Shown here: positions 3,923 to 7,573 of the stretch, piece after piece
How the letters are laid out: every line of letters begins with the position of its first letter
Position numbering within the stretch: the stretch's first letter is position 1
Program-made: the position numbers and the translations under genes
Source of the DNA: Desulfococcus multivorans
Lineage (GTDB): Bacteria > Desulfobacterota > Desulfobacteria > Desulfobacterales > Desulfococcaceae
Direction: 5' to 3'
Length of the DNA: 64,000 nucleotides
Assembly (NCBI RefSeq): GCF_001854245.1
Contig: NZ_CP015381.1
Location: forward strand, 3,011,001 to 3,075,000
Notes under the pieces: generated by a model
Database searches by the model: none
What the model was told of the DNA's origin: nothing
Seen by the model: the letters and a program-made list of their open reading frames with translations, nothing else

Positions 3923-4233
3923 TGTCGATATCCATTCCAGAAATGTTTAAAAGGTTGAGAGAGAACGCCCGAGACGCCCCTCCTCTATAGGTCGCCTCCG
4001 GATAAAAATCAACATGTCAGCCCCACTCCCACTGCACGGCATGCGCTTTCAAAAGTACCCGATAACCTTCCGCCGGATGAGTGACAATCCGGTGCCTCCG
4101 ATCTCGGTCATTTTTTTTGTAACCATTTCCCCCGCGGCAACGATGATAACATCATAAGGCGGCAATACCGTCGACAGTCGTGAAGCTTCAACGACCATTC
4201 ATCACTTTTATCATTCGATACATGGAGGATACT
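3923..4233. other. divergent intergenic region
   Basis: This 311-base spacer separates the thioesterase (leftward) and the ZraP/Spy-like gene (rightward), so it should hold both promoters. I see no convincing sigma-70 boxes. The only structure noted is a short dyad, ATGAT-aac-ATCAT, near 4142, too weak to call an operator. Confidence 0.4.
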
Positions 4234-4773
4234 ATGAAGATCAACAAAGGATTGACAATTATCGCGGCGCTTGCCATGATTTTCACCCTCGGCTCCCAGG
4301 CCATGGCCGGTCGCGGGGGCGGTTGGAAAAACTGTGACGGCAATATGGGGTTTCATGGCCGACACGGCGGAAAGCACGGCGGTTACGGCATGATGGGTCT
4401 CGGATTTCTGAGGGACGCGAACCTTACCGAGGACCAGATGCAGCAGGTCGTCGGTATCGTTAAAAATTACGCGACCGACCTGAACGCCAAGAGAGATGCC
4501 GTGAGAACGGCCCGCCAGGACATGATGAAGACCCTGATGGCGGATGACGCGGACGAAGCGGCGGTCCGGAAGGCCCACGCGAAAGCGGCGACGGCAGGAG
4601 AGGCCATGATGGTTCTCCGCTTCAAAATGGTGAGCGACATCAAAAAGATACTCACCGCTGAGCAGCTCGCCGCCGTCAAGGAAAATATGAACCGCCGTCA
4701 TCAAAGGATGCAGGATAACTCCGGTCGTCGATGGACGGAATTCGAAAAACAACTGGACGCCCTCATTAAATAG
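4234..4773 (+). CDS. ZraP/Spy-like periplasmic metal-binding protein
   Basis: This 179-residue exported protein has a Sec signal peptide (about residues 1-24, ending SQAMA). A Gly/His-rich stretch follows (GFHGRHGGKHGG), then a helical LTxxQ-type domain (DANLTEDQMQQV and later LTAEQLAAVKENM). This is the layout of the Spy/CpxP/ZraP family of periplasmic metal-binding or chaperone proteins, and the His-rich stretch suggests Zn, Ni or Cu binding. ATG at 4234 has GGAGG 5 bases upstream; the longer in-frame opening to 4180 would not begin with a signal peptide. It directly precedes an ECF sigma factor and two membrane proteins, so it may be a target or part of the same envelope metal-stress circuit. 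Confidence 0.8.
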   Translation: MKINKGLTIIAALAMIFTLGSQAMAGRGGGWKNCDGNMGFHGRHGGKHGGYGMMGLGFLRDANLTEDQMQQVVGIVKNYATDLNAKRDAVRTARQDMMKTLMADDADEAAVRKAHAKAATAGEAMMVLRFKMVSDIKKILTAEQLAAVKENMNRRHQRMQDNSGRRWTEFEKQLDALIK

Positions 4774-4781
4774 GATCATAT

Positions 4782-4815
4782 GCCGGGGTCCGGGGCGCAT
4801 TGCCCCGGCTCCGGC
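4782..4815 (+). promoter_or_regulatory. GC-rich hairpin before the ECF sigma factor gene
   Basis: GCCGGGGTCCGGGGC and GCCCCGGCTCCGGC form an imperfect 14-bp stem with a 5-base loop right after the ZraP/Spy-like gene. There is no T-tract. It may limit read-through or stabilise the upstream message. It overlaps the TTG at 4800, which argues for the later ATG as the sigma-factor start. Confidence 0.45.
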
Positions 4816-4841
4816 CGGTCATCGACACCCGACTTCTCATT

Positions 4842-5444
4842 ATGCAGCAGATCGCCACCACTGAAAGCGACGCGGCTCTTATTCAGCAGATCATCGCGGG
4901 GAATGCCGATGTCTTCGAAACGCTCCTGAAGCGCTATGAACAACCGGTGTTGCGGATATTGAAGAGACACCTTCCGTACGATCAGGTCGAGGAAACCGCT
5001 CAGGAGGTCTTTGTCAAGGTTTACCAATCCCTGCCGGGCTTCAAACAGACCGGCAGCTTCAAGCACTGGTTGTCATCCATCGCCGTCAGGACCTGTTACG
5101 ATTTCTGGCGGAAACACTACCGGAACCGGGAGATGCCCATGAGCTCTCTGACGGAAGCCCAGGCGGAGTGGCTGGAAAAAACCCTTTCCAATGACGCTGA
5201 AATCGATCATGAAAATCTGGGACGACGGAAGGAAGCCCGGGAGGTTTTGGAGGAGGCTCTCGGCCGGCTTTCCGCCGAGGATCGGATGGTGCTGGAACTG
5301 GTCTACCTGGAAGGTCTGACAGGGAAGGAAGCCGCAAGTCTGCTGGGTTGGAGCGTGGCCAACGTAAAGGTTCGAACGTTTCGCTCCAGAAAGAAACTCG
5401 AGAAGATACTCATCGGGCTGGCCCGACACGAGGAGGATCGATGA
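4842..5444 (+). CDS. ECF-type RNA polymerase sigma factor
   Basis: This sigma-70 family protein of 200 residues has the two-domain ECF layout. Region 2 contains QVEETAQEVFVKVYQSLPGFK and the WLSSIAVRTCYDFWRKHYR segment. Region 4 contains LSAEDRMVLELVYLEGLTGKEAASLLGWSVANVKVRTFRSRKKL, a helix-turn-helix for -35 recognition. I chose ATG 4842 because it gives the usual ECF length; an in-frame TTG at 4800 lies inside a hairpin. Its stop overlaps the start of the next small membrane protein (ATGA), so the two are translationally coupled, as is common for sigma/anti-sigma pairs. The neighbours suggest a metal- or envelope-stress regulon. Confidence 0.92.
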   Translation: MQQIATTESDAALIQQIIAGNADVFETLLKRYEQPVLRILKRHLPYDQVEETAQEVFVKVYQSLPGFKQTGSFKHWLSSIAVRTCYDFWRKHYRNREMPMSSLTEAQAEWLEKTLSNDAEIDHENLGRRKEAREVLEEALGRLSAEDRMVLELVYLEGLTGKEAASLLGWSVANVKVRTFRSRKKLEKILIGLARHEEDR

Positions 5445-5767
5445 AACCCGTTTACAGAAATCGATTGAACGCTGTTCTGAGAACGGCCTACCGTGAAAAA
5501 ACAGCCGCTCCTGTTCCGGACGGGTGGCAGCGAGGGGTTATGGAACGCATCCACGTCCTTCCCTCGGCATTGGCGTGGCGTGCCCGCGTCGTATATGAAT
5601 TCACGGGCTTGTCCTGGCGGTTCGCCGCCGCGGCATGCGTTTTGGTCATTGTGATGCTGTCGGTGGTCGCCTTTCAAGACGGTTTCCAGACCGAATACGA
5701 AATGGCCCGTCTGTTCATCGGCGATCCCCTCGAATTCAGTCTGGTGCAATCCATGGGAATTTTTTAG
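5441..5767 (+). CDS. small membrane protein, candidate anti-sigma factor (CnrY-like)
   Basis: This 108-residue protein has a cytoplasmic N-terminal part of about 65 residues, one membrane segment (about 67-88, SWRFAAAACVLVIVMLSVVAF) and a short periplasmic tail. No zinc-finger HxxxCxxC motif is visible, so it is not a ZAS-type anti-sigma factor. Size and topology resemble CnrY, which holds the ECF sigma factor CnrH at the membrane. The start overlaps the sigma stop by four bases and is preceded by GAGGAGG. The next gene begins on the base after its stop codon. The anti-sigma role is inferred from position and topology only. Confidence 0.65.
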   Translation: MKPVYRNRLNAVLRTAYREKTAAPVPDGWQRGVMERIHVLPSALAWRARVVYEFTGLSWRFAAAACVLVIVMLSVVAFQDGFQTEYEMARLFIGDPLEFSLVQSMGIF

Positions 5768-6496
5768 ATGAACCACCTTAAACTCAAGATGATAGCGGGA
5801 ATCCTGCTGGTCTTTTTCGCGGGAATCGTCCTCGGGACCGTGGGAACCCATCTCTATGCCAAACGCCAGTTCGAACGGATGGTCCGGGGGCCGGCCGCCT
5901 TCCTGTTTCCCCGATTCATGGAGAAGATCGGGAACGAACTGGGCCTGACACCGGAGCAGCAGAAAAAAACCTCGGATATTCTGGGTGACCTCGAGGAAGC
6001 CCTCTATGAGTTCAGAAAAAAACACGCCGGTGAGTTGGACGCCATCATCGAACGCCATTTTGAAATGCTGAAGGCAAACCTTTCAACCGATCAGCAGGAA
6101 AAGCTGGAAAGCTTCAGAAACGATTTTCACCGGTTCCGGAAACGGTGGCTGAGGCCTCACGACAAATTCGGACCCCCAAGGCATTCGGAAGCACGATCCT
6201 TTCGGATGCGATTGAAGCAACAGCTCAATTTGAGCGACACGGCGTGGGATGAGGTTCAGGTCATCCTTCGAAAGGATTTTCGCAAGAAGCGGAAATTGTT
6301 CCGGCGACATTGGAAAGACCGTCTTACCGAAACGGAATTTCGGACACGAATGAACGACATCCAGCAGGAAACCGAAAGCGCACTCTCTGAAATCCTGACC
6401 CCCGATCAACTGGCGACCTTCAAAGCATTGCAGGCGGAGGTAATGCAACACCGGACCGAGGATGACCCTCCCCCACCCCTACACGGCGCGCCTTGA
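5768..6496 (+). CDS. membrane-anchored Spy/CnrX-like periplasmic sensor
   Basis: This 242-residue protein has an N-terminal membrane anchor (about 8-30, IAGILLVFFAGIVLGTVGTHL) and a charged, helical periplasmic domain. Two LTxxQ-like blocks are visible (NELGLTPEQQKKTSDIL and ILTPDQLATFKALQ), with a third, LSTDQQEKLESFR, between them. This is the pattern of CnrX/NccX and the heavy-metal-resistance branch of the Spy family. It lies third in a tight sigma, short membrane protein, anchored sensor array. It probably senses metal or misfolded protein in the periplasm and relieves the anti-sigma factor. Metal ligands cannot be assigned from the sequence. Confidence 0.75.
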   Translation: MNHLKLKMIAGILLVFFAGIVLGTVGTHLYAKRQFERMVRGPAAFLFPRFMEKIGNELGLTPEQQKKTSDILGDLEEALYEFRKKHAGELDAIIERHFEMLKANLSTDQQEKLESFRNDFHRFRKRWLRPHDKFGPPRHSEARSFRMRLKQQLNLSDTAWDEVQVILRKDFRKKRKLFRRHWKDRLTETEFRTRMNDIQQETESALSEILTPDQLATFKALQAEVMQHRTEDDPPPPLHGAP

Positions 6497-6535: not shown

Positions 6536-7573
6536 ATGATCCAGATTGACGGTGCCTACGGCGAAGGCGGAGGGCAGATTTTGCGAACGGCGCTGGCGTT
6601 GTCCCTGGCCACCGGCACGCCGTTCACCATCACTCGCATCCGGGCTAACCGCAACCGCCCGGGACTCATGCGACAGCACCTCGCAGCGGTTTCGGCCGCC
6701 ACGGCCGTCGGGCATGCCCGGACAATCGGCGCGGCCTTGGGCGCCGGCCGCCTCACCTTTCAGCCCGAAGGGGTTTATCCCGGCCGATATCGTTTTGACG
6801 TCGGCAGCGCCGGCAGCGCCACGCTGGTCCTCCAGGCGATCCTGCCGCCCCTGCTCACTGCAGAAGGCGACACCCGGCTGATTCTCGAGGGGGGCACCCA
6901 CAACCCGTTCGCCCCGCCTTTCGACTTTCTCGACCGGACGTTCCTGCCCATGATCCGACGGATGGGGCCCGAGGTAACGGCAACGCTTGCCCGGCCCGGG
7001 TTCTTTCCGGCCGGCGGCGGACGCTTTCAGGTTGACATTCGACCTTGTCTCAGACTGAACGGCTTCGATCTCCTTCAGCGAGGAAGCGTCAATCGCTGCA
7101 GCGCCGCAGCGGTCACGGCGAAGCTTCCCCGTCACATTGCCGAACGAGAGCTCGCCGTGATCCGCCGCCATATCACGCTTAAAGACGATTGCCTTTCAGT
7201 GATCGAGGTCTCCGATTCGCCGGGTCCCGGCAATATCGTGACCCTGGCGGTGGAAAGCGACGCCGTCACCGAGATCTTCTCGGGCTTCGGCCGTCGCGGC
7301 GTGCCCGCCGAGAAAGTGGCCATGGCGGTCGTCGCCGAGGCCCGTGAATATCTGGCTGCGGACGTCCCCGTGGGGCGCCGCCTGGCCGATCAGTTGCTCG
7401 TCCCCCTGGCCCTGGCCGGCAGGGGCCGCTTCCGGACGCTCCCCCCGTCCCGTCATACCCGCACCAACGCCCATGTGATCCAGCAATTTCTGGAGGTTGA
7501 CATTACCTTCGACGCGAAAGCCGACGGATCATATGAGATCGCCGTTTCCAGCCGTCACGACGCAACGGATTGA
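6536..7573 (+). CDS. rtcA: RNA 3'-terminal phosphate cyclase
   Basis: RtcA converts RNA 3'-phosphate to a 2',3'-cyclic phosphate through a covalent enzyme-AMP intermediate. The protein is 345 residues, the normal length. It begins with the family signature (IDGAYGEGGGQILRTALALS), has RPGLMRQH and the glycine-rich FPAGGGRFQ segment, and ends with SRHTRTNAHV. His307 in that motif aligns with the nucleotidylated histidine of E. coli RtcA (His309). No rtcB or rtcR lies beside it, so this is an orphan copy downstream of the metal-sensing module. It is probably a separate unit. Confidence 0.93.
   Translation: MIQIDGAYGEGGGQILRTALALSLATGTPFTITRIRANRNRPGLMRQHLAAVSAATAVGHARTIGAALGAGRLTFQPEGVYPGRYRFDVGSAGSATLVLQAILPPLLTAEGDTRLILEGGTHNPFAPPFDFLDRTFLPMIRRMGPEVTATLARPGFFPAGGGRFQVDIRPCLRLNGFDLLQRGSVNRCSAAAVTAKLPRHIAERELAVIRRHITLKDDCLSVIEVSDSPGPGNIVTLAVESDAVTEIFSGFGRRGVPAEKVAMAVVAEAREYLAADVPVGRRLADQLLVPLALAGRGRFRTLPPSRHTRTNAHVIQQFLEVDITFDAKADGSYEIAVSSRHDATD

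Follow-up and report, generated by a model that had tools for sequence, protein, structure and literature searches.

An ECF sigma factor operon with a double Spy-like sensor candidate and putative chaperone and efflux outputs in Desulfococcus multivorans and its relatives

A four-gene operon of Desulfococcus multivorans probably encodes an autoregulated envelope-stress circuit governed by an extracytoplasmic function (ECF) sigma factor, with Spy-like chaperones and tripartite efflux as its output; as read from sequence, it would be the ECF counterpart of the Bae and Cpx systems. The operon lies in a stretch of 64,000 nucleotides (hereafter the window; positions 3,011,001 to 3,075,000 of NZ_CP015381.1, assembly GCF_001854245.1) of a complete genome of 4,455,399 bp. 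Comparative searches indicate that the module is found repeatedly among sulfate reducers and related bacteria, and that nearly every copy is preceded by a promoter motif, TGTAACy-N16-CGACtA, which is new here. The module was nowhere described in the papers searched; a large reclassification of ECF sigma factors fell outside that search, and the sigma factor may already own a number in the published ECF group classification.

All four open reading frames exist at nearly exactly the positions given in a preliminary description made from the letters of the window, and the features of the locus are as follows.

4118 to 4146, plus strand: predicted ECF promoter, TGTAACC-N16-CGATGA, 88 bp 5' of the start codon of the Spy-like gene
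4234 to 4773, plus strand: Spy/CpxP/ZraP-like soluble periplasmic protein, 179 aa, ATG at 4234 (Metal_resist match, PDB relatives, synteny)
4782 to 4815, plus strand: strong RNA hairpin past the end of the Spy-like gene and before the ATG of the sigma factor (folding energy)
4842 to 5444, plus strand: ECF sigma factor, ATG at 4842, with an in-frame TTG at 4800 as a possible upstream start
5441 to 5767, plus strand: anti-sigma factor candidate, 108 aa (synteny, AF2 model, weak NCBIfam match)
5768 to 6496, plus strand: membrane-anchored periplasmic sensor candidate, 242 aa (domain duplication, LTXXQ matches among relatives, AF2)

The genes for the sigma factor, the small membrane protein and the periplasmic LTxxQ protein form a tight operon. 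The first four bases of the 108-aa gene (ATGA) include the stop of the sigma gene, and the 242-aa frame begins on the base right after the stop of the 108-aa frame. The hairpin at 4782-4815 is very stable and GC-rich, with no T-run behind it (-34 kcal/mol for 4770-4850, z -2.4), and may act as an attenuator or a processing site; its loop contains the TTG at which the sigma factor may start. A gene for an RNA 3'-terminal phosphate cyclase (RtcA; 6536-7573 of the window) follows the sensor gene after 40 bp, a position shared with a sister genome (L003) and absent from the other module loci read.

The first gene product carries a signal peptide and an N-terminus rich in His and Gly. Its match to Pfam Metal_resist (38.8 bits, cut-off 29.2) places it in the Spy/CpxP/Metal_resist superfamily; its closest PDB structures are Spy and CpxP, and it scored 47.2 bits with the Spy equivalog model, under that model's cut-off of 174. 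The second product is an ECF sigma-70 factor by TIGR02937 (95.1 bits, cut-off 42.9), with matches to Sigma70_r2 and r4_2 as well, so that the His/Gly-rich ZraP/Spy-like protein followed by an ECF sigma factor of the preliminary description was confirmed. The solved structures nearest to the sigma factor are of the RpoE/AlgU type. These score above CnrH, and assignment of the sigma factor to the CnrH type was rejected on that ground despite 28% identity to CnrH.

As had been described, the 108-aa protein has a single transmembrane helix. An AF2 model (pLDDT 82.4, pTM 0.36) gave two cytosolic helices (residues 3-20 and 29-39), the transmembrane helix and a short tail, the periplasmic part amounting to only about 25-30 residues. 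Similarity searches yielded a weak NCBIfam anti-sigma match (E=0.0019), no Pfam family and no match to RseA; with respect to a class II (CnrY-like) anti-sigma domain, the model offers the two predicted N-terminal helices, and Foldseek returned zero matches to it. From its topology and gene position we infer that this protein inhibits the sigma factor. In a class-level sample of 291 genomes, its relatives were present in 52, with a single copy in each, and the module would define an anti-sigma family outside every Pfam profile.

The 242-aa protein, which begins as described on the base after the small gene and bears the LTxxQ-type blocks reported for it, has an N-terminal transmembrane anchor and LT/LSxxQ blocks at residues 60, 105, 153 (degenerate) and 211. 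These fall in two tandem four-helix LTxxQ (Spy/CpxP-like) units at about residues 43-128 and 139-231, and the AF2 model (pLDDT 83.8) likewise shows a long N-terminal helix and then two four-helix units. Judged by profile alignment of the N- and C-terminal domains (hhalign probability 98%, E=1e-14), the two are copies of each other; both are present in 16 of 41 sensor sequences, the remainder having one. The single sequence reached 15.1 bits with Pfam LTXXQ/Metal_resist (gathering score 24.3). Among its relatives, at E<=0.1, LTXXQ was matched by 37 of 41 and Metal_resist by 16 of 41 (best E=1e-8 and 4e-7, respectively), and a PDB search with the family profile recovered Spy (E=0.001). Foldseek with the model gave insignificant helical matches only, NccX ranking 39th at E=6.4. 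Conservation is confined to an invariant GxxxG in the transmembrane helix and the leucines and glutamines of LTxxQ, the sequence being poorly conserved otherwise; no conserved set of His, Cys or Met residues was found across the family. Profiles and model together thus describe the sensor candidate as a transmembrane anchor followed by two Spy/CpxP-like domains in tandem.

A search with the sensor across 194 genomes of the order gave 44 positive genomes, from which 40 loci besides the window were read, and the order sigma factor, anti-sigma factor, sensor was found in 41 of 41 loci (the window and these 40). A separate search of a named genome collection with an alignment of the sigma factor gave 80 loci, in Desulfonema, Desulfatibacillum, Syntrophaceae, Syntrophorhabdus, Desulfocapsaceae, Nitrospina/Nitrospinia and Bacterium UASB270. 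Nearly all loci selected by the sigma factor alone had this gene order too. With duplicates dropped, 90 distinct modules remained. Where enough downstream sequence was available for assessment, the anti-sigma gene was present in 83 of 83 and the sensor gene in 80 of 83; a Spy-like homolog lies 5' of the sigma gene in 36 of 68 modules. A search of contigs of close relatives with the sensor alone gave no matches, the sequence being too divergent, and it was the whole-genome sensor search and the sigma-based search that recovered modules there. The proposal of a sigma/anti-sigma/periplasmic-sensor circuit with an added soluble Spy-like member has gained from this strict synteny, from the topology of the products and from a shared promoter motif.

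It is quite unlikely that the 242-aa protein is merely a co-expressed, tethered chaperone and that the anti-sigma factor itself senses, for example through regulated proteolysis as with RseA. Such a role would agree with the poor conservation of the protein outside the GxxxG and LTxxQ positions, with a domain number of one or two and with its homology to Spy. Against it stand the position of the sensor gene directly 3' of the anti-sigma gene in 80 of the 83 loci, the small periplasmic part of the anti-sigma candidate, and the finding that AabB, the third gene product of the SigAb operon of Acinetobacter baumannii, lowers sigma activity (PMC12153292).

The motif TGTAACy-N16-CGACtA is common to the relatives, 5' of the Spy-like gene or, where that gene is absent, of the sigma gene. 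When the 40 loci without the window (447 kb) were searched with the pattern GTAAC-N17-CGAC, 30 sense-strand sites were found within 1.4 kb 5' of the sigma gene, compared with a mean of 0.06 in shuffled controls, and none elsewhere on the sense strand. A matrix was trained on these 30 sites with the window held out. Scanned over both strands of the window, it ranked 4118-4146 first (21.9 bits; next site 9.7); the site has a non-consensus -10 element, CGATGA. Its position and score are those expected of an autoregulated ECF promoter, and its activity is predicted. Within the whole genome, TGTAAC-N17-CGAYKA matched exactly once, at this site, and the reversed control pattern likewise matched once. 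With two mismatches allowed there were three matches as opposed to 12 for the reversed control, and since such relaxed searches do not rise above the control, we do not argue for a regulon of a few sites on the strength of the counts by themselves. Among relatives, non-operon matches inside open reading frames or at repeats were counted as chance.

These results bear on the idea that the locus is a chance assembly of an ordinary RpoE-type sigma factor, unrelated neighbors and an over-searched motif. Small helical proteins and LTxxQ motifs do carry little information. The synteny was nevertheless recovered independently by the sensor and sigma searches, the motif occurred 30 times against 0.06 expected, the held-out site was the best in 64 kb, and the motif on the opposite strand follows the presence of divergent efflux genes (p=1.6e-6; below). 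We regard this account as scarcely credible, and as a full explanation it is refuted by the synteny and motif tests.

No efflux genes adjoin the operon in the window, as the preliminary description had noted. Among relatives, divergent genes for MacAB and an outer-membrane factor (OMF) adjoin 19 of 68 modules, and co-directional OMF/RND genes lie behind six of 83; in genome G133, an adjacent and co-directional series of OMF, MacA, MacB and RND genes continues the module. Efflux neighbors were found at 14 of 28 loci without a Spy-like gene versus three of 28 with one (p=0.003). Of the 19 loci that have divergent efflux genes, 13 also had a motif on the opposite strand, versus four of 48 other loci (p=1.6e-6), and of these four exceptions two precede Spy-like genes. 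Two divergent sites (L193 and L194) had no recognizable gene behind them and were excluded.

Unlinked copies of the motif precede second Spy-like genes, an M48 protease gene and genes for an RND adaptor and pump. One locus (L157, G011:C281) has two identical copies, 79 bp apart, 5' of a second Spy-like gene; at another (L184, G155:C161), the motif lies 5' of a gene for an M48-type (BepA/HtpX-like) metalloprotease, plausibly an envelope quality-control target. In genome G015, which yielded no module in the sensor search, the motif occurs 5' of the gene for an exported EF-hand protein (L182 and L208), with a same-strand OMF gene nearby.

D. multivorans itself has, unlinked to the module, an OMF-MacA-MacB operon with divergent genes for an RND adaptor and pump (genome positions 3484000-3493600, outside the window; L201). 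A motif lies 151 bp 5' of the OMF gene and scores 16.1 bits, under every training site; being weaker than these, and with the two-mismatch search below its control, it is credible only through its orthologs. Motifs precede four of nine OMF orthologs from module-bearing genomes (those of D. multivorans and three others) versus none of 21 orthologs from genomes without a detected module (p about 0.005, computed by hand). A genome was counted as module-bearing if a similar sensor could be detected in it, so the latter genomes may hide divergent modules. The RND pump at this locus resembles multidrug pumps (765.7 bits) more than heavy-metal pumps (458.3 bits with CusA/CzcA), both scores being under the respective cut-offs. 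A further two-mismatch copy in the same genome (281317-281345; L185), 65 bp 5' of the gene for an exported protein of 310 aa rich in Arg and His, could be due to chance. By these associations, the motif would also mark drug-type efflux genes, which form a candidate regulon.

In the circuit proposed, the sigma factor at rest would be tethered to the inner membrane through the two helices that the 108-aa anti-sigma factor exposes to the cytosol, and the double Spy/CpxP-like sensor would control the short periplasmic tail of the latter and/or its transmembrane helix. A disturbance of the periplasm, most likely misfolded proteins or a toxic compound and possibly metal, would change the state of the sensor and lead to release of the sigma factor. 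Once free, this would transcribe from TGTAACy-N16-CGACtA promoters both its own operon, whose leading gene encodes the soluble Spy-like chaperone, and genes for tripartite efflux (MacAB with an outer-membrane factor, and RND in some relatives), the D. multivorans set being the unlinked one at ~3.489 Mb. Newly made anti-sigma factor and sensor would then return the circuit to rest. The hairpin at 4782-4815 could allow more of the chaperone than of the regulators to be produced; alternatively, it could separate the Spy-like gene from the sigma gene transcriptionally.

As a bolder suggestion, which we offer tentatively and consider possible though on balance doubtful, the sensor may be a repurposed Spy-type chaperone, tethered and duplicated, that binds the anti-sigma factor as long as it has no client and releases it when occupied by misfolded proteins. 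It would then belong to an envelope-stress response that relies on undescribed protein families and takes the place of Cpx and Bae across Desulfobacterota and some neighbors. Were this true, a chaperone domain itself would read periplasmic folding and turn on Spy-like chaperones and efflux via a sigma factor. Sulfate reducers and their relatives gain a concrete candidate for an envelope-stress system: its parts are named, its promoter code can be read from the sequence and its output is predicted. The pairing of sigma factor and promoter is open to reporter assays in another host, so that the anaerobe itself need not be cultured.

Among known systems, CnrYXH of Cupriavidus metallidurans pMOL28 shares with the module an ECF sigma factor, a small single-span anti-sigma factor with two predicted cytosolic helices, a helical periplasmic protein that is anchored in the membrane and broadly of the Metal_resist/LTxxQ kind, and overlapping genes. 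The preliminary description had further held that the gene order matches CnrH, CnrY and CnrX, and this was in error: the order on pMOL28 is cnrY-cnrX-cnrH-CBAT, whereas here it is sigma factor, anti-sigma factor, sensor. Moreover, the heavy-metal RND cluster of that operon has no adjacent equivalent here, where instead a two-domain sensor and an upstream Spy-like gene are found. The CnrY family profile, PF17524, gave 172.7 bits with CnrY and matched none of 40 small proteins (the window and 39 relatives), the 108-aa product among them; hhalign probabilities were 0.3% for CnrY with the small-protein family and 1.5% for CnrX with the sensor family, with no detectable similarity in the latter case. 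CnrX itself scored 91.2 bits with Metal_resist, which the window protein alone does not match. The metal ligands of CnrX, which we take to be H42, H46, E63, H119 and M123, are all found in the CnrX sequence compared, whereas the window sensor has neither HxxxH nor HxxxM and both patterns are rare in its relatives. Kinship with CnrYXH is thus unsupported by gene order, by the CnrY profile, by the ligands and sequence of CnrX and by the RpoE-type sigma factor, and the likeness is one of topology: the module is CnrYXH-like without being a member. A closer approach to the Y-X-H layout was seen on a plasmid of Sphingobium yanoikuyae (L073), where genes for a hypothetical protein, a periplasmic heavy metal sensor and a sigma factor follow one another, with no efflux genes adjoining.

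A metal-specific (Ni, Co, Zn or Cu) circuit in the style of CnrYXH, in which the 242-aa protein binds metal directly while the Spy-like protein buffers metal in the manner of ZraP, is an unlikely reading. It draws on the shared topology, on the Metal_resist match and His/Gly-rich N-terminus of the Spy-like protein, on the weak Metal_resist matches of 16 of the 41 sensor relatives, and on the response to copper of the similarly built SigAb operon (PMC12153292). It is opposed by the lack, across the sensor family, of a conserved arrangement of His, Met and Cys residues and, in the window protein, of the two histidine patterns, by the absence of similarity to CnrX, and by the MacAB- or multidrug-RND-like character of the linked and motif-bearing efflux genes, the D. 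multivorans pump included.

Compared by description rather than by sequence, SigAb-AabA-AabB appears to be a characterized layout closer to the envelope-stress circuit proposed here than is CnrYXH. Its genes overlap, it is autoregulated with a small direct regulon, and AabA is a transmembrane anti-sigma factor of 107 aa predicted to bind the sigma factor in a CnrY-like manner (PMC12153292). The two thus have in common the order of a sigma factor, a transmembrane anti-sigma factor of about the same size and a periplasmic helical protein. They differ in that AabB has a signal peptide and is periplasmic whereas the window sensor is anchored, in that a Spy-like first gene is not described for SigAb, and in that the direct targets of SigAb include relA and sRNAs (PMC12153292). 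With RpoE-RseA-RseB, the module shares the logic of sigma factor, membrane anti-sigma factor and periplasmic partner, and its sigma factor is nearest to RpoE-type structures; however, its anti-sigma candidate is half the size of RseA, the partner is Spy-like rather than RseB, and the promoter is GTAAC/CGACT. In its predicted output, the module resembles BaeSR and CpxAR of E. coli, which pair Spy with tripartite efflux; BaeR binds 5' of both spy and mdtABCD (PMC7657598). Those are two-component systems, whereas the candidate circuit comprises an ECF sigma factor, an anti-sigma factor and a Spy-like sensor acting through another DNA motif, and it would thus tie an ECF sigma factor to an output that enterobacteria run by two-component systems.
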